In this document: positions 1 through 8,372 of the stretch, one piece after another
Numbering within the stretch: position 1 is the first letter of the stretch
Layout: every line of letters begins with the position of its first letter
Made by a program: the position numbers and the translations under genes
The notes under the pieces: model-generated
Databases searched by the model: none
The model's input: only the letters and a program-made list of their open reading frames with translations
What the model was told of the DNA's origin: nothing
Assembly (NCBI GenBank): GCA_003023535.1
Contig: PXSC01000133.1
Coordinates: forward strand, 1 to 8,404
Direction of reading: 5' to 3'
Source of the DNA: Halobacteriales archaeon QS_9_70_65
Lineage (GTDB): Archaea > Halobacteriota > Halobacteria > Halobacteriales > Haloarculaceae
DNA: 8,404 nucleotides

Positions 1-513
1 ACGGAGGCGACCGTCGAGCGACGGGTCATCGTCTCCCAGGAGGGCGACTCCGAGGAGGCGTTCGTCGAGATCCCGCCCGACGAGGAGCCGTCGACCGGCG
101 ACGAGTTCCTCGTCGAGACCGAGACGGCGCTGCTCACCGCCCGGGTCACGTCGCTGGAGACGACCGACGGCGCCCGCGTCGAGACGGCCGCCGCCGCCGA
201 CCTCAAGACGTTGTGGACCCGCGCGGTCGGCAACGTCGCGGTGAACCTGACGCTGCACCCGAAGGACGGCGGCCACGACGAGACCCGGAGCGTGAAGCTC
301 CAGGTGCCCGGCGACGAGTCGTTCGTCGTCGGCGAGACCCACGAGTTCGGCGGCGAGGAGTTCACCGTCGAGCGGCTGCTCGTCCGCGAGGACGCCACCG
401 GTTACGACCGAACCGGCTACGACCACCCCGGCGACGGCGCCCCCGCGAAGGACCTCAAGCGGGCCTACGCCCGCGACGAGGACGCCCGGAGCCGAGCCTG
501 GTCGGGCTGGTAG
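1..513 (+). CDS. HVO_0476-like (zinc finger family) protein, 5' end outside window
   Basis: The frame is open from base 1 to a TAG at 511-513, giving 170 residues of the C-terminal part. The visible portion reads as an acidic beta-rich domain (VERRVIVSQEGDSEEAF, then DEFLVETETALLTARVTSLE) followed by a segment with TLWTRAVGNVAVNLTLHP and an Arg/Trp-rich tail ending RSRAWSGW. This resembles the haloarchaeal family annotated as HVO_0476 zinc finger protein, which I recall beside pimT genes. In that family the metal-binding cysteines are near the N-terminus, which is not in this window; no Cys is visible here, so metal binding cannot be confirmed. No biochemical role is known to me. The next gene starts four bases after this stop, so the two are probably co-transcribed and translationally coupled. 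Confidence 0.75.
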   Translation, partial: TEATVERRVIVSQEGDSEEAFVEIPPDEEPSTGDEFLVETETALLTARVTSLETTDGARVETAAAADLKTLWTRAVGNVAVNLTLHPKDGGHDETRSVKLQVPGDESFVVGETHEFGGEEFTVERLLVREDATGYDRTGYDHPGDGAPAKDLKRAYARDEDARSRAWSGW

Positions 514-517
514 GCGG

Positions 518-1165
518 ATGTTCAATCGCGACCGCGCCGGCGACCCGGAACGGCGGCGCGAGGAGCTGGTCGACCGGCTCGCCGAGGCCGGCCACGTCGA
601 GGGCGACGCCACCGCCGAGGCCATGCGATCCGTCCCGCGCCACGAGTTCGTCCCCGAGGGGCGCCGCGACGCCGCCTACGCCGACCGGCCGCTGCCCATC
701 GGCGCCGGCCAGACCATCTCGGCGCCGCACATGGTCGCCGTCGTCTGCGACCTGCTCGACGTCGGCGCCGACGACCGCGTACTGGAGGTCGGCACCGGCT
801 GCGGCTACCACGCCGCCGTCACCGCCGAGCTCGCCGACGACGTCTACAGCGTCGAGTACGTCGATCGACTGGCCGAGCGCGCCCGCCGCCGGCTGCAATC
901 GCTCGGCTACGACGCCGTCGACGTCCGCGTCGGCGACGGCCGCCACGGCTGGCCGACGCACGCGCCGTTCGATGCCGCCTACCTCACCTGTGCGGCGCCG
1001 TCGCTGCCGGATGCGGTCGTCGACCAGCTCCGGGCGGGCGGCCGGCTGGTCGCCCCGGTCGGCACCGACGACCAGCGGCTGGTGGCGGCGACCCGGACCG
1101 CCGACGGCCTCAACCGCGAGGACCACGGCGCCGTCCGGTTCGTCCGGATGCAGGGAGGCGACTGA
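518..1165 (+). CDS. pimT1: Protein-L-isoaspartate O-methyltransferase (first copy, intact)
   Basis: This 215-residue cytosolic enzyme is predicted to transfer a methyl group from SAM to L-isoaspartyl residues in aged proteins, starting their repair to aspartate. The length fits the family. Residues 54-57 (YADR) and 60-71 (PIGAGQTISAPH) match the conserved substrate-side region, including the Gly-Gln-Thr-Ile-Ser-Ala-Pro signature. Residues 88-101 (VLEVGTGCGYHAAV) are SAM motif I, with the GxGxGY core intact. Residues 174-182 (GGRLVAPVG) are the conserved late strand. The ATG at 518 lies four bases after the upstream stop and gives the expected N-terminal helix; no Shine-Dalgarno is obvious, so coupling to the upstream gene is likely. 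The symbol follows haloarchaeal usage for a tandem pair; the second copy downstream is broken, so this is probably the only working copy here. Confidence 0.93.
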   Translation: MFNRDRAGDPERRREELVDRLAEAGHVEGDATAEAMRSVPRHEFVPEGRRDAAYADRPLPIGAGQTISAPHMVAVVCDLLDVGADDRVLEVGTGCGYHAAVTAELADDVYSVEYVDRLAERARRRLQSLGYDAVDVRVGDGRHGWPTHAPFDAAYLTCAAPSLPDAVVDQLRAGGRLVAPVGTDDQRLVAATRTADGLNREDHGAVRFVRMQGGD

Positions 1166-1166
1166 C

Positions 1167-1630
1167 GTGTCCGAGGGGCCGCCGTGGCGCGAGCTGGCGC
1201 TGCTGTGGGCCGCCCGGCGCTGCGGCGCCCTGGAGGCGCTGACGACGACGGCCGGCACCGCGGGGGTAGTCCGGCGGCCGCCGTGCTCGGGGGCACGCTC
1301 GCGGTAGTTCGCCACCCATGGCCGGACGGTCGTCCTACCGGTGCCCGCCGAACGCGCCGAGGCCGTCGCCCTGCCGCTGCGGTCGACGGCCGTCGACGTT
1401 CGGTCCGGCGGCGCGACCGACCTCCCGGCGTGCGACCCCGTGTCGGTGTCCTCCTCGAGACCCTCGGCGGGGAGACGGCCGACGCCAAGTTGCGCGGCGT
1501 CGGGGCGCCGGCGGCCGGCGCGGTTCGGGTCCACGATGCCAGGACGGTCCGGTCATGGCTCGGATCAGCCTTCGCCGGCAGCCGTCGAGTCGGCCCCCGG
1601 AACCCCGCCGTCGGTCGCGCGATTGAATAG
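1167..1630 (+). pseudogene. Decayed class I SAM-dependent methyltransferase
   Basis: A GTG at 1167, one base after the pimT1 stop, opens a frame reading VSEGPPWRELALLWAARRCG and then an ALEALTTTAGTAGVV stretch, like the N-terminal winged-helix or dimerisation segment of haloarchaeal methyltransferases. It ends at TAG 1305-1307. Later pieces fall in other frames. Frame 3 (about 1320-1440) gives HGRTVVLPVPAERAEAV and VDVRSGGATDLPA, resembling the second and third Rossmann strands plus the acidic G-D-A-type loop. Frame 2 (about 1440-1600) gives VLLETLGGETADAKLRG and then DARTVRSWLGSA, resembling the C-terminal 'wL.daGF' part, stopping at TAG 1628-1630. An intact member would be about 750 bases; only 464 remain, and the SAM motif I region is missing. 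I infer a large internal deletion plus several frame changes. The assignment rests on pattern similarity; no single frame encodes the protein. Confidence 0.6.
1624..1630 (+). promoter_or_regulatory. Possible TATA box of the second pimT
   Basis: TTGAATA is centred 26 bases before the ATG at 1653, the spacing expected for a leaderless haloarchaeal transcript. It stands out in otherwise GC-rich sequence. It also overlaps the last codons of the preceding methyltransferase remnant. Confidence 0.4.
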
Positions 1631-1652
1631 GCTCCGGAACCGAGCCGAGAAC

Positions 1653-2316
1653 ATGGACCCGGCGGTGCTCCGAGACGACATGGTCGACAGCCTGCGACAC
1701 GAGTCGAAGGCCGTCGTCGGCTCCGAGCCGGTCGACGCCGCGATGCGGACGGTCCCCCGGGAGCCGTTCGTCGAGGAGGAGTCCGCCGCCTACGCCGACC
1801 GCTCCTTCGAGCGGCTCGGCACCCGGGTGCTGTCGCCGCTACACCGCCGCGGTCGTCGCCGAGATCGCCGGCGAGGCCAACGTCCAGGGTGTCGACATCG
1901 CCCGCCGACTCGTCCACGAGGCCCGCTCGAACCTCGAGCGGGCGGGCTATCCGGGCGTGCTGGTCGACCGCCGGGACGGCGCCCGCGGGTTCGACGAGTA
2001 CGCTCCCTACGATTGCATCCTGCTGGAGGCGGCCGCCGTCGAGCCGCCGGCGGCGCTCGTCGACCAACTGGCGCCCGGCGGCCGGCTCGTGATGCCGCTC
2101 GGTACGACCGCACAGGAGCTCGTCGTCGTCGAGGACGGCGAGCCGGTCGCGGAGTTCGGCACCGTCGCCTACCAGCCGATGCTGGTCGAGGGCGAACAGC
2201 CCCACGGCGTCGAGCGCAACCGGACCCACCGCGAGGACCGCCAGCGGGCCCGCCGGGACGCCGAGCGCCGGAAGGGCTGGGAGCAGTCCTGGATCGACTG
2301 GGACGAGCGCATCTAA
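1653..2316 (+). pseudogene. pimT2: Second protein-L-isoaspartate methyltransferase, broken by internal deletion and frameshift
   Basis: The ATG at 1653 starts MDPAVLRDDMVDSLRHESKA and runs to ERLGTRVLSP (62 residues), matching the N-terminal part of the haloarchaeal PimT2 type. At 1838-1840 the sequence jumps: the family continues in the +1 frame with YTAAVVAEIAG and runs 158 residues to TAA 2314-2316. That part contains VDIARRLVHEARSNLERAGY, DGARGFDEYAPYDCILLEAA, GGRLVMPLGT and the lineage tail ERNRTHREDRQ...WIDWDERI. What normally lies between VLSP and YTAAV, about 26 residues carrying the first SAM-binding strand and the GxGxGY loop, is absent, and the net length is not a multiple of three. 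Restoring the frame would therefore still give a protein unable to bind SAM in the usual way. The rest is well preserved, so the deletion looks recent. The stop overlaps that of the opposing gene by four bases. Confidence 0.85.
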
Positions 2317-2762
2317 TCACGGACCACCAGCAGCGCGGTGTTTTCCCGCTCGTCGGCGTACTCGCTGCCGGCCGGCGGCTTGACGCCGAACTCGACGGTG
2401 CCGTCCCGCTGGTTGGCGCCGAGTTCCGGCGACAGCTCCAGCGTCGCGGTCCCGTTCGCGTCCGTGGTGTTCGTCCGGACGCCGTCCAGCCGCGCCGAGC
2501 CGCCGCGGGCGACGACCGTCGCGTCGGCGACGCCCGCCCCGTCCGGGTCGACGACCGTCACCTCGACGGTGTGGTTGCCGGGCGACACCACCTCCGGCGT
2601 CGGCCGCACGTCCAGCTCCGTCACCGCCAGCCCCGAGATGCCCGACAGCATGCTCATCATCACCGAGAGGCTGGCGACGCCGACGACCAAGGCGATGACG
2701 AGCCGGACCGGCAGCCCTTCGATCGCCCGTTCGTCGCCATGGAATCGCTCACGTTGACGCAT
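2313..2762 (-). CDS. Membrane-anchored protein with Ig-like/carboxypeptidase-regulatory-like domain (function unknown)
   Basis: This 149-residue protein has a short charged N-terminus (MRQRERFHGDERAIEGLPVR) and one hydrophobic segment at about residues 19-42 (LVIALVVGVASLSVMMSML). An extracellular beta-rich domain follows, with PTPEVVSPGNHTVEVTVVDP, then GVADATVVARGG and TNTTDANGTATLELSPELG, the pattern of Ig-like domains that carry a (G/A)VxDAxV motif and a 'TDANG' turn. The end is ENTALLVVRD. I recall a haloarchaeal DUF family (DUF7382, from memory) of this shape next to pimT genes. The N-terminus loosely resembles archaeal pilin-like leaders, but the usual peptidase site is not clear. The ATG at 2762 is preferred over an in-frame upstream ATG because TTTATG lies about 28 bases before it, giving a leaderless start. 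The TAG overlaps the stop of the opposing pimT2 remnant. Confidence 0.82.
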   Translation of the reverse strand: MRQRERFHGDERAIEGLPVRLVIALVVGVASLSVMMSMLSGISGLAVTELDVRPTPEVVSPGNHTVEVTVVDPDGAGVADATVVARGGSARLDGVRTNTTDANGTATLELSPELGANQRDGTVEFGVKPPAGSEYADERENTALLVVRD

Positions 2763-2786
2763 AGGGGTGGTGGTCCCGCACTCGTA

Positions 2787-2792
2787 CATAAA
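2787..2792 (-). promoter_or_regulatory. TATA box for the membrane-anchored protein gene
   Basis: On the minus strand this reads TTTATG, centred about 27-28 bases before the ATG at 2762. The spacing matches leaderless haloarchaeal promoters and decides the start codon. Confidence 0.6.
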
Positions 2793-2805
2793 CTCGGGGA
2801 ACCGC

Positions 2806-2813
2806 AAGCTACC
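2806..2813 (+). promoter_or_regulatory. Weak candidate TATA box for the crcB pair
   Basis: AAGCTACC is centred about 29 bases before the ATG at 2839. It is a poor TATA match but sits at the right distance in a 76-base divergent intergenic region. No fluoride-riboswitch-like fold or long leader fits in that gap. Confidence 0.3.
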
Positions 2814-2838
2814 TCCGGCCGCCGGTGGACGCTCGACC

Positions 2839-3189
2839 ATGGACACACGGACCGTCGTGCTGGTCGGGGTCGGCGGCTTCGCGGGCGCCGGCAGCCGCCA
2901 CGCGATCGCCGTCTCGCTGCCGGCGACGTTTCCGTGGGGCACGCTCGCGGTCAACGTCGCCGGTGCGTTCCTGCTCGGACTGTTCGTCGTCGAATCGGGC
3001 GGCCGTCCCCGGGCGGTCCGGCTCGCCGTCTCGGCCGGCTTCCTCTCGTCGTTCACCACCTACAGCACCTTCGCCGCCGAGACGGCCGCCCTCCCGCCGG
3101 CGCTCGCGGCGGTCAACGTCGCCGCCACGTACCTGCTCGGGGTCGTCGCCGTGGTCGCCGCGATGGGGGTGTCGTCGTGGCGCTCGTGA
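2839..3189 (+). CDS. crcB1: Fluoride ion channel subunit, CrcB/Fluc family (first of pair)
   Basis: This 116-residue protein is predicted to have four membrane helices and, as a dimer, to let fluoride leave the cell. Visible family motifs are GFAGAGSRH at the end of helix 1, WGTLAVNVAGAFLLG (residues 33-47, with pore Asn39), SSFTTYSTFAAE (residues 70-81, the helix-break region whose aromatic and Thr/Ser residues line the pore and bind the central sodium), and AVNVAATYLLG in helix 4. A Tyr replaces the second Phe of the usual FTTFSTF. The start at ATG 2839 gives the standard N-terminus; the longer in-frame start at 2767 would add a non-family extension. Some prokaryotes encode two Fluc proteins that work as a heterodimer, and the overlap with the next gene fits that arrangement. 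Confidence 0.93.
   Translation: MDTRTVVLVGVGGFAGAGSRHAIAVSLPATFPWGTLAVNVAGAFLLGLFVVESGGRPRAVRLAVSAGFLSSFTTYSTFAAETAALPPALAAVNVAATYLLGVVAVVAAMGVSSWRS
3165..3171 (+). promoter_or_regulatory. Shine-Dalgarno site deciding the second crcB start
   Basis: GGGGGTG, one mismatch from the haloarchaeal GGAGGTG, ends five bases before GTG 3177. The alternative GTG at 3186, which overlaps the upstream stop as GTGA, would be 14 bases away. The site therefore favours 3177. Confidence 0.5.
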
Positions 3190-3530
3190 CCGCGCTCGCG
3201 GTCGGGCTCGGGGGGTCGGCCGGCGCCGTCGCCCGCCACGGGGTGAGCGAGCGGCTCGAGCGGCGCGCCCTCGACACCCTCGTCGTCAACGTCGCCGGAA
3301 GCCTGCTGCTGGGGGTCGTCCTCGGCGCGTCCGTCGGCGGCCCCGCGGCCCTCGCCGCCGGGACCGGCTTCTGCGGCGCGTTCACGACGTTCTCGTCGTT
3401 CGCCGTCGAGACCGTCGGGCTCGCCGCCGAAGGTCGTCGCCGCGTCGCCGCCGCGAACGCCGCCGGCACGCTCGGGCTGGCCGTCGCCGCCGTCCTGTTC
3501 GGGCGCGCGCTCGGGGCCGCGGTCGGCTGA
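3177..3530 (+). CDS. crcB2: Fluoride ion channel subunit, CrcB/Fluc family (second of pair)
   Basis: This 117-residue paralogue of the preceding gene overlaps it by 13 bases if GTG 3177 is the start, or by 4 if GTG 3186 is used. Motifs are GLGGSAGAVARHG (helix 1), LDTLVVNVAGSLLLG (residues 32-46, pore Asn38), TGFCGAFTTFSSFAVET (residues 63-79, canonical aromatic/Thr region) and ANAAGTLGLAVAAVLFG (helix 4). Unlike its partner it keeps Phe at the FTTF position. It has an Arg-rich loop after helix 1 (ERLERR) and another before helix 4 (EGRRR). Fluc dimers are antiparallel, so two charge-biased subunits encoded together would form a heterodimer; that is inference. Translation is probably coupled to crcB1. 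Confidence 0.92.
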   Translation: MALVTALAVGLGGSAGAVARHGVSERLERRALDTLVVNVAGSLLLGVVLGASVGGPAALAAGTGFCGAFTTFSSFAVETVGLAAEGRRRVAAANAAGTLGLAVAAVLFGRALGAAVG

Positions 3531-3564
3531 ACGGCCGCGACGCTCGCGGTGCGGCTCGCACTTG

Positions 3565-3591
3565 CTGAGAACCCCTCGTGTCCGGTCTCAG
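3565..3591. terminator. Inverted repeat between convergent crcB2 and HalX genes
   Basis: CTGAGA at 3565-3570 pairs with TCTCAG at 3586-3591; the stem nearly extends with ACC/GGT if one A is bulged. It lies in the 57-base convergent gap and overlaps the stop codon of the HalX gene, so it could act in ending either transcript. No T-run follows. This is a modest structure and a weak call. Confidence 0.3.
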
Positions 3592-4136
3592 TCGACGTTC
3601 AGCTGCCGCAGTTCGACCTCGAAGTCGCGTTCGGTCAGCCGGTCGGCGGTCCGGTCGACCTCCTCGCGGAGCTCGTTGAGCCGGGCGGTCAGCTCCTGGT
3701 AGGAGTCGCTCTGTTCGAGTTCCTGCGGCGTCTTCTGTGTCTTCAGGGCGGCCACCTTCGAGGCGACGGAGAACATCTCCCGCAGCTTGTCGTCGTACGC
3801 CGACCGCGACAGCAGCGTCTCGACGATCTCCGAGAGCCGCTCCTGCTCGACCGGCTTGACGATGTACTCGTCGAAACCCATTTCGATGATGTCGAAGTCG
3901 GGTTCGACGGCCGTGACCATCGAGACGCCGCAGTCGTACCCCGCCCGGCGGATGTGCTCGACGACGTCGCCCCCCGACGTCTGCGGCATCAGTCGGTCGA
4001 CGAGCGCGACGTCGACCGACCCGTCGACCATCTCGATGGCCTCCTCTCCCCCGTACGCCGTCCGCACGTCGTACTTCTCGGAGAGCCACGCCGTGTAGAG
4101 GTCCGCGAGGTCGTTACCGTCTTCGGGTCCGGACAA
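3588..4136 (-). CDS. HalX-domain response regulator with receiver lacking its first strand
   Basis: This is a phosphoreceiver plus HalX helical domain, a haloarchaeal signalling architecture with no visible DNA-binding domain. Residues 10-30 (LADLYTAWLSEKYDVRTAYGG) match receiver helix 1 and strand 2. Asp47 in VALVDRLMPQTSGG is the phosphoacceptor, Thr75 in MVTAVEPDFDIIEMGFDEY and Lys94 in YIVKPV are the conserved switch residues. The HalX part (about 103-150) has LLSRSAYDDKLREMFSVASK, then a charged coiled-coil-like tail. The N-terminus is odd: the only in-frame start is a TTG at 4136 giving MSGPEDGNDLADLY, so the usual first strand (ILVVDDE type) is missing and the acidic pair would be Glu5-Asp6. 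Asp47 falls several residues earlier than normal. Either the 5' end is deleted or frameshifted, or the protein is a divergent short form. The body is intact with no internal stops. Confidence 0.8.
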   Translation of the reverse strand: MSGPEDGNDLADLYTAWLSEKYDVRTAYGGEEAIEMVDGSVDVALVDRLMPQTSGGDVVEHIRRAGYDCGVSMVTAVEPDFDIIEMGFDEYIVKPVEQERLSEIVETLLSRSAYDDKLREMFSVASKVAALKTQKTPQELEQSDSYQELTARLNELREEVDRTADRLTERDFEVELRQLNVD

Positions 4137-4357
4137 ATAAGGAGTTGTGGGTTTTTTCGCCCTCCGAAATCGCCGACGATTCCCGGTCGACGCCGACGGC
4201 CGAGCTCACCCGCAGAAATGGTTCGTCGTCCCGCCGAAGCCCGGCAGTTCGACGGCCGAGAGACGCCCGCTCGGCGACGACTGTCCGCGTCTTCGTCCTG
4301 GTAGGTCGGCCGGACCGACCCCTCGATAGGACGGTTTCTCCGGCTTTCATCCCTCGA
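4137..4357. other. Intergenic region, no supported gene
   Basis: The 220 bases between the HalX start and the FKBP remnant contain open frames in several phases, but none shows a recognisable domain or a good start. A six-T run lies at 4153-4158, and TTATTT on the minus strand just before the TTG start could be a TATA box. If it is, the transcript would begin near 4112, inside the annotated HalX frame, which adds to doubt about that 5' end. Confidence 0.4.
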
Positions 4358-4834
4358 ATGCGCACGATGATCGCCGATGGCGACTCCGTCACGCCGGAGT
4401 ACGCCGGTTGACTCACCGACGGGACAGTCCTCGACACCTCCCGGGCGCCCGTCGCCGAGGAGACGGGGTTGGCCGAGACGTAGCCCGACCGCGAATACAC
4501 CCCGCTGACCGTCGAGGTCGGCGCTGGGCGGGTCGTCGAGGGAACTGGGGGCCGGTCTCGAGGTCGGCGAGACGACGACGCTGACGATTCCCCAGAGCCC
4601 ACGGCGAGCGGACCGACGAGAGTTCAAAAGTACGAGACCGACCGAATCCGGGGGATGCCCGACGGACGGGTGCCCGAGGAGGGTGCCCATCGAGGCACGG
4701 GACGGCCAGCAGGGCGAGATCGTCCACGTCGACGAGGCGGTCGTCCGGGTCGACTTCGACCCCGAACTCGCCGGCGAGACGCTGGAGTTCGAGGTCGAGG
4801 TCGAGGCCGAGGCCGAGATCGTCGAGTCAGCTGA
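4358..4834 (+). pseudogene. SlyD-like FKBP-type peptidyl-prolyl isomerase, multiply broken
   Basis: Translating across frames recovers a haloarchaeal SlyD/FKBP in order. Frame 2 from ATG 4358 gives MIADGDSVTPEYAG, then TGA at 4409-4411 where Arg (CGA) is expected, LTDGTVLDTSRAPVAEETG, TAG at 4481-4483 where Gln (CAG) is expected, then PDREYTPLTVEVGAGRVVEG. An extra base near 4543 shifts to frame 3 (GLEVGETTTLTIP), then frame 1 near 4603 (GERTDE), frame 2 near 4622 (VQKYETDRIRGMPDGRVPEE), and frame 3 from 4683 (PIEARDGQQGEIVHVDEAVV, then DPELAGETLEFEVEVE). Comparison with the family suggests a few residues are also deleted near 4545. Intact, it would be a cytosolic proline isomerase and chaperone with FKBP and inserted-flap domains. 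Both nonsense codons are single C-to-T changes. The native stop is lost; a TGA at 4832-4834 in another phase is taken as the approximate end. Confidence 0.88.
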
Positions 4835-4933
4835 CGTCCCTGCCGGCCGCCGACGGTCCCGGTTCTCACGCCTCGACGGCGAGACGGCGCGAGCGCCGCC
4901 CGGACGGCCGTGCCCGCCGCTTCGACCGGCGCG

Positions 4934-5198
4934 TCAGAACGCGTCGAGCGAGGCGTCGAGGTGGTGTCGTGCCCGCAGTCCGGCGCCGAACTGGCCGACG
5001 AGCTCCGACCGGTGGTCCGGACAGGCCAGCACCGCCAGCTGCCCGTCGCCGACCGGGACGACCGGCTGCTGTACCCGCTGTGGGGCCCGGCGACACCCCG
5101 GGCAGGTGATCCCGCCGGCCGGCCGGTGGGCGAGCAGCGAGACGTCGCCGTCGGCCGCGAGGTCCCGCTTCCGGCGGCCGGAACGTGGGTTCTCTCAT
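4934..5198 (-). pseudogene. Small Cys-pair protein, 5' frame disrupted (function unknown)
   Basis: The minus strand encodes KRDLAADGDVSLLAHRPAG, ITCPGCRRAPQRVQQPVVPV, GDGQLAVLACPDHRSELVGQ and HHLDASLDAF before TGA at 4936-4934. The CPGC and CPDH pairs could bind zinc, and the codon use is gene-like. Upstream in this frame there is no ATG, GTG or TTG before an in-frame TGA about 12 codons before DLAADG. An ATG at 5198 in the next phase (MREPTFRPPE) lies about 30 bases after a CTTACC TATA-like element, so I infer one frame change around 5165-5175 joining MREPTFRPP to KRDLAADG. It could be a recent mutation or a sequencing error. I recall similar small haloarchaeal Cys proteins without known function but cannot name the family with confidence. 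It converges on the dead FKBP. Confidence 0.5.
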
Positions 5199-5250
5199 CT
5201 CACGGATCCTTGGCGGGCCAGGCGGGTAAGTGGTGGGACCACGTCGGCCC

Positions 5251-5295
5251 GCGGCCCCGCGAGCGGCGGCCCCGCGGACGGCGGCTCCGCGGGCG
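5251..5295. repeat. Three tandem copies of a 15-base GC-rich repeat containing a hairpin
   Basis: GCGGCCCCGCGAGCG (5251-5265), GCGGCCCCGCGGACG (5266-5280) and GCGGCTCCGCGGGCG (5281-5295) follow without gaps. Within them CCCGCGGA (5271-5278) pairs perfectly with TCCGCGGG (5286-5293) around a seven-base loop. The array lies 17-62 bases beyond the nadE stop, so it may end that transcript or be a slippage-prone satellite. Confidence 0.85.
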
Positions 5296-5312
5296 GTACG
5301 ACCGGGCCCGTG

Positions 5313-6989
5313 TCACTCCTCGAACAGCGGCTCGTAGGACGCCGCGATCGGGTAGCGCCACCCGCTGTCGAAGGCCTTCGTCGTGACGCGGAGCGCCGGC
5401 GGCGACTGCTCGCGCTTGAACTCCGAGCGGGTCAGCCGCCGGATCACCGTCTCGACCTGCTCGCGGTCGGCGCCGGTCGCCGCGACGATCTCGTCGACCC
5501 GGCGCTTCCCGCCGACGTACGCCCGCACCACCGGGTCGATCACCTCGTACGGCGGGATCTCGTCGGCGTCGGTCTGGCCCTCGGCCAGCTCCGCCGTCGG
5601 CTCTTTCTCCAGCACGGACCGCGGAATCGGGGCCTCGTCGCCGACGGGCGGGTCGTCGTTGAACGCGCGGGCGAGGGCGTACACCCGCCGTTTCGTGCAG
5701 TCGCCCAGCGGCGCCAGCGCGCCGACCGCGTCGCCGTACAGCGTGCAGTAGCCGACCGCCGCCTCGCTTTTGTTGTCCGGCGTCAACACGAGCGCCCCGC
5801 GGTCGTTGGCCACCCCCATCAGGAGCAGCCCCCGGACGCGGGCCTGGACGTTCTCGCGGGTGAGCCCGGCGACGGCGCCGTCGGTCAACCCGTCGATGGC
5901 CGCGACGGCGTCGGCGGCGATCCCCTCGATGTCCCGTTCGCCGAATTCGATGCCGAGGCCTCGGGCCACCCGTTCGGCGTCGCTGCGGTTGGCCTCGGCG
6001 GTGACGTGACTCGGCAGCGTCACGCCGTAGACGTGCCCCGGGCCGACCGCGTCGACGGCGATGGCCGCGGCGACCGCCGAGTCGATCCCGCCCGAGAGTC
6101 CGACGACGACGTCCTCGAAGCCGGTCTTGTCGAGGTAGTCGCGAACCCCGACGGCCAGCATCCGCCTGAGCCCTCCGACCCCCTCCTCTTCCGGGAGCGC
6201 CGGTGTCGCGTCGTCGCCGTCCCACCGCTCGACGACGACGTCGGCCTCGCCGAGCGCCCCCATCGCGGTGACCTCGCCCGAGGGGTCGGCGACGAACGAG
6301 ACGCCGTCGAACAGGATGTCGTCGTTGCCGCCGACCTGGTTGGCGAACACCACCGGCGCGTCGACCGCCGCCGCGTGGCCGCCGAACCGTCCGACCCGGT
6401 CGGCCGGCTTGCCGACGTGGAACGGGCTCGCCGATAGGTTCAAGAGTAGATCGACGCCCTCGTACGGCGCGATCGGGTTGGCCGCGTGGCGCCGCTGGCC
6501 CGTCACCGCCTGGTCGTACCAGGCGTCCTCGCAGACCGTGAGCCCGACCGTCGCCCCGTCGATCTCGACCGTCGTCGGCGACCCGCCGGACGAGAAGTAG
6601 CGGTGCTCGTCGAAGACGTCGTACGTCGGGAGCAGCCGCTTGGCGTAGGTGGCCCGCGCCTCGCCGTCGGCGAAGACGGTCGCGCTGTTGGTCAGCGGCG
6701 GCCCTTCCCCGGCGTTCCGCGCGGTGTGGCCGACGACCAGCGCCGGCCCGTCGGCGGTGGCCCGCCGGAGGGCCGACAGCGCCTCCCGCTCGGCGTCCAG
6801 CACCGCCTCCCGGTGGAGGAGGTCCCGCGGCGGGTAGCCCAGAAGTGCCAGTTCCGGCGTGACGACGACCGCCGCCCCGGCGTCGGCGGCCCACTCGAAC
6901 CGCTCGAGAATCGCCTCGCGGTTGCCCGCGACGTCGCCCACCGTCGGGTCGTGCTGGACGACCGCGACGGGCGGCAGGTCCCGCTGCAT
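5313..6989 (-). CDS. nadE: Glutamine-dependent NAD+ synthetase (nitrilase-like amidase plus synthetase)
   Basis: This 558-residue two-domain enzyme makes NAD+ from nicotinic acid adenine dinucleotide and ATP, using ammonia released from glutamine and channelled between domains. The N-terminal carbon-nitrogen hydrolase domain (about 1-260) has the expected triad: Glu46 in TPELALLGYPPRDLL, Lys117 in TYAKRLLPTYDVFDEHRYF and Cys153 in GLTVCEDAWY. The C-terminal synthetase domain has the PP-loop SGGIDSA (299-305), TLPSHVT, LTPDNKSEAAVGYCTLYGD (402-420) and the late signature SEFKREQSPPALRVTTKAFD. Length and ending match the bacterial two-domain form. From memory, many haloarchaea have a shorter ammonia-dependent NadE, so this copy may come from bacteria; that is inference. 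ATG 6989 is supported by a TATA-like element about 26 bases upstream and an in-frame stop just before it. Confidence 0.95.
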   Translation of the reverse strand: MQRDLPPVAVVQHDPTVGDVAGNREAILERFEWAADAGAAVVVTPELALLGYPPRDLLHREAVLDAEREALSALRRATADGPALVVGHTARNAGEGPPLTNSATVFADGEARATYAKRLLPTYDVFDEHRYFSSGGSPTTVEIDGATVGLTVCEDAWYDQAVTGQRRHAANPIAPYEGVDLLLNLSASPFHVGKPADRVGRFGGHAAAVDAPVVFANQVGGNDDILFDGVSFVADPSGEVTAMGALGEADVVVERWDGDDATPALPEEEGVGGLRRMLAVGVRDYLDKTGFEDVVVGLSGGIDSAVAAAIAVDAVGPGHVYGVTLPSHVTAEANRSDAERVARGLGIEFGERDIEGIAADAVAAIDGLTDGAVAGLTRENVQARVRGLLLMGVANDRGALVLTPDNKSEAAVGYCTLYGDAVGALAPLGDCTKRRVYALARAFNDDPPVGDEAPIPRSVLEKEPTAELAEGQTDADEIPPYEVIDPVVRAYVGGKRRVDEIVAATGADREQVETVIRRLTRSEFKREQSPPALRVTTKAFDSGWRYPIAASYEPLFEE

Positions 6990-7011
6990 ACGTTACATAT
7001 CGCCCGCACGA

Positions 7012-7017
7012 TGTTAT
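7012..7017 (-). promoter_or_regulatory. TATA box of nadE
   Basis: On the minus strand this reads ATAACA, centred about 26 bases before ATG 6989, indicating a leaderless transcript. No Shine-Dalgarno is present before the ATG. Confidence 0.5.
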
Positions 7018-7364
7018 GGCTGTTGCAGGCGACACCCGGTCGCGGCTCGAACGCTCCGGGTCGTCACTGCCGGTCGGCGTCGGCGATTCTGTGCTCACCC
7101 GTGGAGTGCGACGATCGGGGAGGTCGAAAAACGCCGTGGCGTCTCTTGGGACTGAACGAACGCCGAAGGCATTCGCAGAGGTCGGCCGGCGCAGAGCGCC
7201 GGCCGGGATTCCGACGCGCTGTTTCGAAGAACCCGTTCAGTACCCGTGCACTCTACCGATTAACTGATAATCAATCACGGTGATGTGACAGCGCTCGCTC
7301 GCAACGTTTGGCTGACGAGTGGCAGGCTCCGATAGATTCGATGGAACGAAACCGCGCCGTCAGA
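7018..7364. other. Intergenic region between nadE and the toxin-antitoxin pair
   Basis: I see no convincing gene here; open frames show no domain. It holds a small stem ACGCC-GT-GGCGT (7131-7142), the motif GGCGTCTCTTGGGAC (7138-7152) that recurs at 8274, a strong hairpin at 7183-7205, and an AT-rich patch at 7258-7280 carrying one arm of a 10-base inverted repeat. Composition drops in GC from about 7230 onward, suggesting that the left edge of acquired DNA lies near there. Confidence 0.5.
7183..7205. repeat. Perfect 9-bp hairpin
   Basis: CGGCCGGCG (7183-7191) and CGCCGGCCG (7197-7205) are exact reverse complements around CAGAG. There is no T-run on either side. It lies about 190 bases upstream of both flanking genes' starts, so it is not an obvious terminator; its role is unknown. 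Confidence 0.7.
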
Positions 7365-7372
7365 GTTATTGA
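7365..7372 (+). promoter_or_regulatory. TATA box of the toxin-antitoxin operon
   Basis: GTTATTGA is centred about 27 bases before ATG 7395, which fits a leaderless start and favours this ATG over the in-frame ATG at 7341. Confidence 0.6.
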
Positions 7373-7394
7373 TACACACTCGGCACACATTACT

Positions 7395-7631
7395 ATGGAA
7401 CGAAAGAACGTCACAATCCGGAAAGATCAGTCAGAGTGGGTTGACGAAACAGGGGTCAACCTCTCTCGACTCGTCCAGGAAGCGATTGACGAGCGGATGG
7501 AGCCGACAGAACCGGAGCTCGCAAAGGCGTACAAAGAGAACACTGCCCACGCGGCCGAGACGAACGCCGAGTGGAGTGGCGTCTCGACTGAAGCGGACGA
7601 ACAGCTCGGCGACCATCCGGACCACGAATGA
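7395..7631 (+). CDS. Antitoxin of a MazE/MazF-like pair, ribbon-helix-helix type
   Basis: This 78-residue acidic protein begins MERKNVTIRKDQSEWVDETG, followed by VNLSRLVQEAIDERME: a short beta strand (NVTI) and two helices, the order of ribbon-helix-helix DNA-binding dimers. Residues 38-78 are acidic and probably disordered when free (PTEPELAKAYKENTAHAAET, then STEADEQLGDHPDHE), which fits a tail that wraps and neutralises the toxin. By analogy with known systems it would also repress its own promoter. The final codons overlap the toxin start as ATGA, so translation is coupled. The same frame extends upstream to ATG 7341 and beyond, but the TATA spacing supports 7395. GC is clearly lower than in the neighbouring nadE gene, consistent with acquisition by transfer. 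Confidence 0.85.
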   Translation: MERKNVTIRKDQSEWVDETGVNLSRLVQEAIDERMEPTEPELAKAYKENTAHAAETNAEWSGVSTEADEQLGDHPDHE

Positions 7632-7981
7632 GAGTCCGGAGAGGGGACGTAGTCAGCATTGATCTCGGTGGTCCGAACGACGACGACACCCGAGGTGGAG
7701 AGATTTACAAAACCCGTCCGGCAGTCGTCGTTCAGAATGACGTCGGAAACGAACACTCAGTAACGACCATCGTTGCACCGATCTCGGGCGGGCATACGAG
7801 TTACCCGTTCCACGTCAACCTTCCGGGGTCGATGGACGAACTCAGTAAGGACTCGCATATTCAACTGGATCAAATCCGCACAGTTGACACCCAAGAACGA
7901 ATCGTAGACACGCACGGGACTGTCTCCCCGTCTCAGATGGAGGAAATCGACGACGCGATTCGCATCTCACTGGGACTGTAG
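7628..7981 (+). CDS. MazF/PemK-family endoribonuclease toxin
   Basis: This 117-residue protein is predicted to cleave RNA when freed from the antitoxin, stopping growth. The MazF/PemK fold is visible in order: RRGDVVSIDLGGP (residues 4-16), IYKTRPAVVVQNDVGN (26-41) with the conserved Arg30-Pro31, TTIVAPISG (46-54) with the Thr/Ser positions of the active site, PFHVNLP (60-66), and KDSHIQLDQIRTVD (74-87), then a C-terminal helix EEIDDAIRISLGL. Length is normal for the family and no key motif is missing. ATG 7628 overlaps the antitoxin stop by four bases, making a bicistronic operon. Base composition is more AT-rich than upstream genes. The cleavage sequence cannot be read from the protein alone. 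Confidence 0.93.
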   Translation: MRVRRGDVVSIDLGGPNDDDTRGGEIYKTRPAVVVQNDVGNEHSVTTIVAPISGGHTSYPFHVNLPGSMDELSKDSHIQLDQIRTVDTQERIVDTHGTVSPSQMEEIDDAIRISLGL

Positions 7982-8068
7982 GGTATCGTATCGAGAGCAA
8001 CGACCGATTGATTATTTCGTCTGTTCCCGAGCCGGAAAGCGCAAATCCACCCCTAATAACCCCCATCG

Positions 8069-8096
8069 GGACTCGTAATGAATTCTGCCCGAGTCC
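8069..8096. repeat. 7-bp inverted repeat downstream of the toxin gene
   Basis: GGACTCG (8069-8075) pairs with CGAGTCC (8090-8096) around a 14-base loop, about 90 bases past the toxin stop. It is a candidate transcript end, but no T-run follows. Confidence 0.5.
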
Positions 8097-8260
8097 GGTT
8101 TCGCTATCATTAGCAGAGGTCAGAGGCTCTGAGACGCCTGAAACGATGATACGGAGATAATAGACTCATCGGGCGACTCACTTCGTTCGCCTCCCGGACC
8201 CACGCTCGCTCCGCTCATATGGACGCCGGAACTAAGCACCGTCAGAGACGGCGCAAGGGT

Positions 8261-8284
8261 CGAGAGACGCAACGGCGTCTCTCG
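8261..8284. repeat. Perfect 10-bp hairpin with tetraloop
   Basis: CGAGAGACGC (8261-8270) and GCGTCTCTCG (8275-8284) are exact reverse complements around AACG. The right arm is part of the motif shared with 7138-7152. Confidence 0.85.
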
Positions 8285-8318
8285 GGACCGAGCCGATATC
8301 AAAGACGTTCGCGAACAC

Positions 8319-8345
8319 CGGGAGACTCGCGCTGCTCGTCTCCCG
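8319..8345. repeat. 8-bp inverted repeat
   Basis: CGGGAGAC (8319-8326) pairs with GTCTCCCG (8338-8345) around an 11-base loop, the second of three hairpins in 112 bases. Confidence 0.75.
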
Positions 8346-8347
8346 AG

Positions 8348-8372
8348 GTTCCGCTCGCTCCGCTCGCGGAAC
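8348..8372. repeat. 7-bp inverted repeat
   Basis: GTTCCGC (8348-8354) pairs with GCGGAAC (8366-8372); the loop holds the second copy of the CGCTCGCTCCGCTC repeat. Confidence 0.7.

Follow-up and report, generated by a model that had tools for sequence, protein, structure and literature searches.

A haloarchaeal cluster of broken genes: two old pseudogenes and three genes probably clipped in assembly

The five broken genes that lie between positions 1167 and 5198 of the window (our name for the whole stretch of DNA analyzed, 8,404 nucleotides long) are not a single phenomenon. Probably they are two things side by side: a pair of long-dead pseudogenes, namely a methyltransferase and an accessory SlyD-like FKBP, and three healthy genes, those of PIMT2, a HalX response regulator, and a small Cys-containing protein, that were clipped by short-read assembly. 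The cluster is ordinary. The genes of the window are the following, with dN/dS ratios taken against the closest relative, L001, described below.

1–513, forward strand: CPxCG zinc-finger protein, intact, its 5' end cut at the window edge (PF19769; dN/dS 0.20)
518–1165, forward: PIMT1, protein-L-isoaspartate methyltransferase, intact (PF01135, 206 bits; dN/dS 0.18)
1167–1652, forward: methyltransferase remnant, a real and older pseudogene
1653–2316 (ATG at 1653), forward: PIMT2, probable assembly gap (77 nt absent after 1837)
2313–2762, reverse: DUF7382 protein, intact (PF24107; dN/dS 0.02)
2839–3189, forward: CrcBa, intact (PF02537)
3177–3530, forward: CrcBb, intact (PF02537; dN/dS 0.11)
3588 to about 4110–4136, reverse: HalX response regulator, probable assembly gap (PF00072, PF08663)
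About 4360–4835, forward: accessory SlyD-like FKBP, a real pseudogene
4934–5198, reverse: small Cys-containing protein, probable assembly gap (146 nt absent after 5164, frame shifted)
5313–6989, reverse: two-domain NadE, intact in the window (PF02540, PF00795)

The window and its sister locus

The window is haloarchaeal, with a G+C content (in 500-base bins) of 0.65–0.78 up to about position 7000 and 0.55–0.59 thereafter. A PIMT1-based scan of genome contigs gave 80 loci for comparison, the nearest being L001, L002, and L003, whose PIMT1 proteins are 96%, 86%, and 70% identical in amino acids, respectively. L001 is contig PXRZ01000069.1 of a metagenome-assembled genome (MAG), Halobacteriales archaeon QS_8_69_73 (genome G001). 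It is collinear with the window over positions 1–7109, in blastn pieces of 90–98% identity, and the window derives from the same species as QS_8_69_73 or from a sister species. All five lesions picked out in the initial annotation are present where it placed them and, because they can be read against a collinear sequence of this similarity, they are no chance resemblance. One description needed amending. The Cys protein had been said to lack a start; an ATG does exist at 5198, but in a frame other than that of the remainder.

Pairwise alignment with L001 gives 83–93% identity, with many small indels, in the 200-base bins from 1201 and 4201–4800. Outside these bins, identity is mostly 92–99%, broken by five single large gaps. 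Three are on the window side (77 nt after 1837, 59 nt after 4110, and 146 nt after 5164) and two on the L001 side (84 nt after window position 3819 and 95 nt after 6644). The block losses are thus reciprocal, three found solely in the window and two solely in its sister. Both real pseudogenes are common to the two sequences, but L001 retains the three blocks absent from the window, has gaps of its own in the regulator and in nadE, and bears a different toxin–antitoxin-like pair downstream.

Two pseudogenes shared with L001

The decay of the methyltransferase and the FKBP is real, because their lesions are common to the window and L001. What is left of the methyltransferase amounts to about 486 nt (at least about 900 nt in intact homologues), interrupted by stops and frame changes. 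It aligns with the N terminus of the protein at L016 (E 2e-4, three-sequence search), and a four-homologue profile matches it both in the window (E 7e-8) and in L001 (E 3e-5; nine-sequence search). Intact methyltransferases of about 300–345 aa occupy the position between PIMT1 and PIMT2 in L016, L024, L011, and L051, and L002 has about 100 nt remaining between its two PIMT genes. The remnant is a pseudogene, then: its homologues are whole at the syntenic position, and a close relative shares the truncated form. It has diverged from its L001 counterpart by 13.1%, with codon-position mismatches of 17/26/17 and so without third-position bias.

The window's copy of the FKBP has no open FKBP domain. 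Its frame contains a TGA at 4409–4411 (found in the window alone), a TAG at 4481–4483 (found also in L001), and several small indels. The L001 copy has a full-length frame interrupted by just one TAG, identical to that of the window. This inactivating stop, common to the window and an independent sequence from a close relative, identifies the gene as a pseudogene. It sits at a glutamine codon, CAG or CAA in L081 and in six relatives (the codon was looked for in eight, L090–L097, and located in six). L081 is the accessory SlyD-like FKBP of Natronomonas aquatica, which over its whole length shares about 60% identity with the L001 copy; it is intact and matches PF00254, whereas the window and L001 copies carry their common TAG. 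Divergence between these last two is 7.7%, spread over the codon positions as 12/12/11 with no bias. In their divergence, the FKBP and the methyltransferase resemble the five intergenic stretches, which have mismatch rates of 8.3–13.3% against L001. Accessory FKBP copies at E ≤ 1e-30 occur in 25 of 60 genomes (only G001's has a stop, among the matches listed), and some FKBP match is found in 58 of the 60.

Both genes were dispensable accessory genes that were dead before the window strain and QS_8_69_73 split, and both appear to have drifted neutrally afterward. That all five lesions, these two included, are assembly errors is vanishingly improbable. The sister draft assembly is clearly faulty, as described below, but both the TAG of the FKBP and what is left of the methyltransferase are found in two sequences, whose divergence looks neutral all along these stretches, which contradicts such an explanation.

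Block losses in the window and in the QS_8_69_73 assembly

The 77-nt block absent from PIMT2 spans the SAM-binding loop, and its absence shifts the frame; the window gene has no such loop in an open frame. The block, loop included, is present in L001, and L002 has the block as well. The two PIMT2 pieces are 96.8% and 98.7% identical to P0121 (246 aa, from a cluster of 20 members), and relatives are 234–309 aa long among the 120 of 1766 matches listed. The 59 nt absent from the regulator take with them the start codon and first β strand. L001 has this block but lacks 84 nt at another place, in frame. What remains in the window is 95.5% identical over 178 aa to the intact P0001 (189 aa, 18 members). 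Among the 120 of 574 matches listed, the only short regulator is P0015, QS_8_69_73's own, at 161 aa; the others are 186–233 aa. As for the Cys protein, L001 has an intact 136-aa frame, for which no Pfam match was found. Stop-free copies at E ≤ 5.1e-31 occur in 10 of the 60 genomes, G001 included, with two more that are weak, one of them with a TAG.

In the sequence that remains, these three genes differ from L001 by just 2.1–2.5%. Their dN/dS ratios, each from a small number of changes, are 0.34–0.35 for PIMT2 (16 changes), 0.09 for the regulator (9), and 0.10 for the Cys protein (5); their remaining sequence shows purifying selection. None of the three window junctions recurs in L001, and that of PIMT2 is absent from L002 too. 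The window's three junctions have microhomology of 1, 3, and 0 bp, and the two of L001 have 6 and 1 bp. With only 0–6 bp, there is no long repeat at the block junctions, and we rejected repeat-mediated deletion as their source; biological deletion in general is neither proved nor excluded by this.

Is this kind of lesion common in the sister assembly? We sampled 40 stretches of QS_8_69_73 (728,044 bases, the contig of L001 included) and, as a control treated by identical steps, 40 stretches (800,000 bases) from the main contig of a relative, G008. The reference came from another relative, G009: 1.2 Mb of its main contig (2.9 Mb) supplied 3278 mechanical ORFs no shorter than 120 aa, which were matched by best non-overlapping tblastn chains. 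(G008 and G009 count here as complete, since in each a single contig makes up the whole or nearly the whole of the stated genome size.) Frame-shifting net deletions of 46–128 nt were found in 19 of 205 matched proteins of QS_8_69_73 and in 0 of 181 of G008 (Fisher p 4.3e-6), scored against G009 alone, so that single entries may be G009 insertions. If in-frame deletions of 48 nt or more are counted as well, the numbers become 29 of 205 and 4 of 181 (p 1.5e-5). The remaining tallies, QS_8_69_73 given before G008, are 3 and 5 for frame changes by small indels, 0 and 3 for frame-changing insertions of at least 36 nt, 12 and 5 for in-frame deletions and 3 and 5 for in-frame insertions (both counted from 48 nt upward), and 14 and 31 for internal stops in matches.

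The QS_8_69_73 genes with block deletions include those for ribosomal protein L11, chorismate synthase (AroC), HisB, methenyltetrahydromethanopterin cyclohydrolase (Mch), and diphthine synthase, all named through NCBIfam matches of their G009 homologues. Further frame-shifting deletions lie in what we take, from sequence, to be a TFB and an EPSP synthase, and in-frame losses in what are presumably a thermosome subunit and ATP synthase subunit E. A search of the whole QS_8_69_73 genome found L11 as two pieces only, in different frames; G002, G006, G008, and G009 have one whole copy each. So many simultaneous losses from housekeeping genes are not credible biology, and the frame-shifting block lesions of QS_8_69_73 are thus most likely an artefact.

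Going by its name, QS_8_69_73 would come from the site called Qs in Finstad et al. 2017 (PMC5532433; BioProject PRJNA351262), a study that used 100-base paired reads, a 600–1000 bp library, and IDBA_UD assembly. Chen et al. 2020 (PMC7111523) describe local assembly errors in short-read MAGs that lead to incomplete or incorrect protein-coding genes. The likeness lies in damaged protein-coding genes in short-read metagenome-assembled genomes; their account of these errors concerns read support and not block deletions of 50–150 nt.

A study-wide fault behind L001 was considered and rejected. Among the 80 loci are nine of the QS_/QH_ naming scheme, with 42 matched proteins, and a frame-shifting block deletion was found in L001 alone and in none of the other eight. 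Nine control loci (77 proteins) gave one such deletion, of 37 nt, in L016, and nine other MAG loci (60 proteins) gave three, all in L017. The last of these is a locus of Halorientalis sp. LUM.68, in which deletions of 161, 73, and 40 nt relative to isolate genomes fall within 11603–12941 and 14183–15903.

The reciprocal losses, together with the excess of deletions in QS_8_69_73, make the window's three block losses look most like local assembly errors. By analogy, they are likeliest to be a fault of the QS_8_69_73 sort, having a similar size range and clean junctions and affecting conserved genes: blocks of 59–146 nt in PIMT2, the regulator, and the Cys protein would most likely have been skipped by a short-read metagenome assembler, with a like fault seemingly at work on other genes of the sister assembly. 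The missing blocks had initially been read as favoring decay. They point the opposite way, since the sister has them and lacks others, in nadE and the regulator. Real decay, favored for at least three loci, is shown for the methyltransferase and FKBP, through lesions shared with L001, and probably does not extend to PIMT2, the regulator, or the Cys protein; a draft-quality assembly, offered as the other option, is probably the answer for these three and not for the two that have truly decayed. It had been said that an artefact pattern recurring in unrelated regions of the assembly would overturn the case for decay, and such a pattern does occur, but what we found concerns the sister's assembly only.

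An unlikely rival is that all five lesions are real: besides its two older pseudogenes, the strain would have recently lost PIMT2, the HalX regulator, and the Cys protein through small deletions. In its favor, the record does contain these lesions, they are clean, and two neighboring genes are certainly dead. A recent deletion would leave the rest of a gene conserved, with which the low divergence is compatible. The assembly fault is not study-wide, given eight other loci of the same naming scheme without a frame-shifting block deletion; the QS_8_69_73 artefact bears on the window as an analogy and not as a direct test; and the G008 control has more internal stops than QS_8_69_73 and some in-frame deletions of its own. 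Against all this, the window and its sister divide five block losses between them in about 7 kb, and each gene hit is kept by the other sequence, except for the regulator, which is damaged in both at different sites. Housekeeping genes of QS_8_69_73 bear the same type of lesion. A related idea is that the block losses are real because the species is unusually prone to losing some 50–150 nt from conserved genes, as an ongoing deletion-prone population. We regard this as a long shot; a true loss of the blocks would make the species an example of rapid decay by small deletions.

Clipping in assembly, our preferred explanation for the three genes, carries a caution for claims of gene loss from draft metagenome assemblies. 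About 9% of the conserved proteins matched in one sampled MAG have a block deletion that shifts the frame and is probably not of biological origin, and claims about the gene content of QS_8_69_73 call for care. Reciprocal comparison with a sister contig tells old, shared pseudogenes from assembly faults.

Neighboring genes and selection

PIMT1, the two CrcB proteins, and NadE had been judged healthy, and so they are: their frames are open and match their Pfam families. PIMT1 is intact in L001 as well. In nine of ten gene segments, dN/dS against L001 is 0.02–0.35. The exception is CrcBa, at 0.71, from 19 changes (12 nonsynonymous and 7 synonymous), next door to CrcBb at 0.11. The neighboring genes are under purifying selection, with one CrcB unclear, and a relaxation of selection across the lineage, or an erosion of its genome, is therefore unsupported. 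Several broken genes in 4 kb and the CrcBa ratio would fit it, but the other nine segments and the codon-position counts speak against it, and we hold it to be very improbable indeed. A theme of protein repair or folding, also proposed, turns out to be weak: QS_8_69_73 has an intact, longer FKBP at another place in its genome, and the window and L001 both have their PIMT1.

The nadE of L001 has a frame-shifting loss, the 95 nt absent after window position 6644. We saw the two-domain NadE solely in the window, in QS_8_69_73 (in two pieces), and in G002 (partial, at a contig end). Of six other genomes, five have weaker matches only (31–46% identity) and one has no match. The lineage has possibly acquired this protein.

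Downstream of nadE, in DNA of lower G+C, lies a CcdA-like/PemK-like pair at 7395–7981 (the CcdA match, at 21.6 bits, falls slightly below the cut-off of 22.4). In L001, a DUF7387/HicA pair at 16658–17413 replaces the window's pair (window 7110–8218), with both flanks collinear. The region looks like an exchange site for toxin–antitoxin cassettes. The stretches 7122–7220 and 8258–8359, which bracket the CcdA/PemK pair in the window, resemble each other (64%, E 4e-7).
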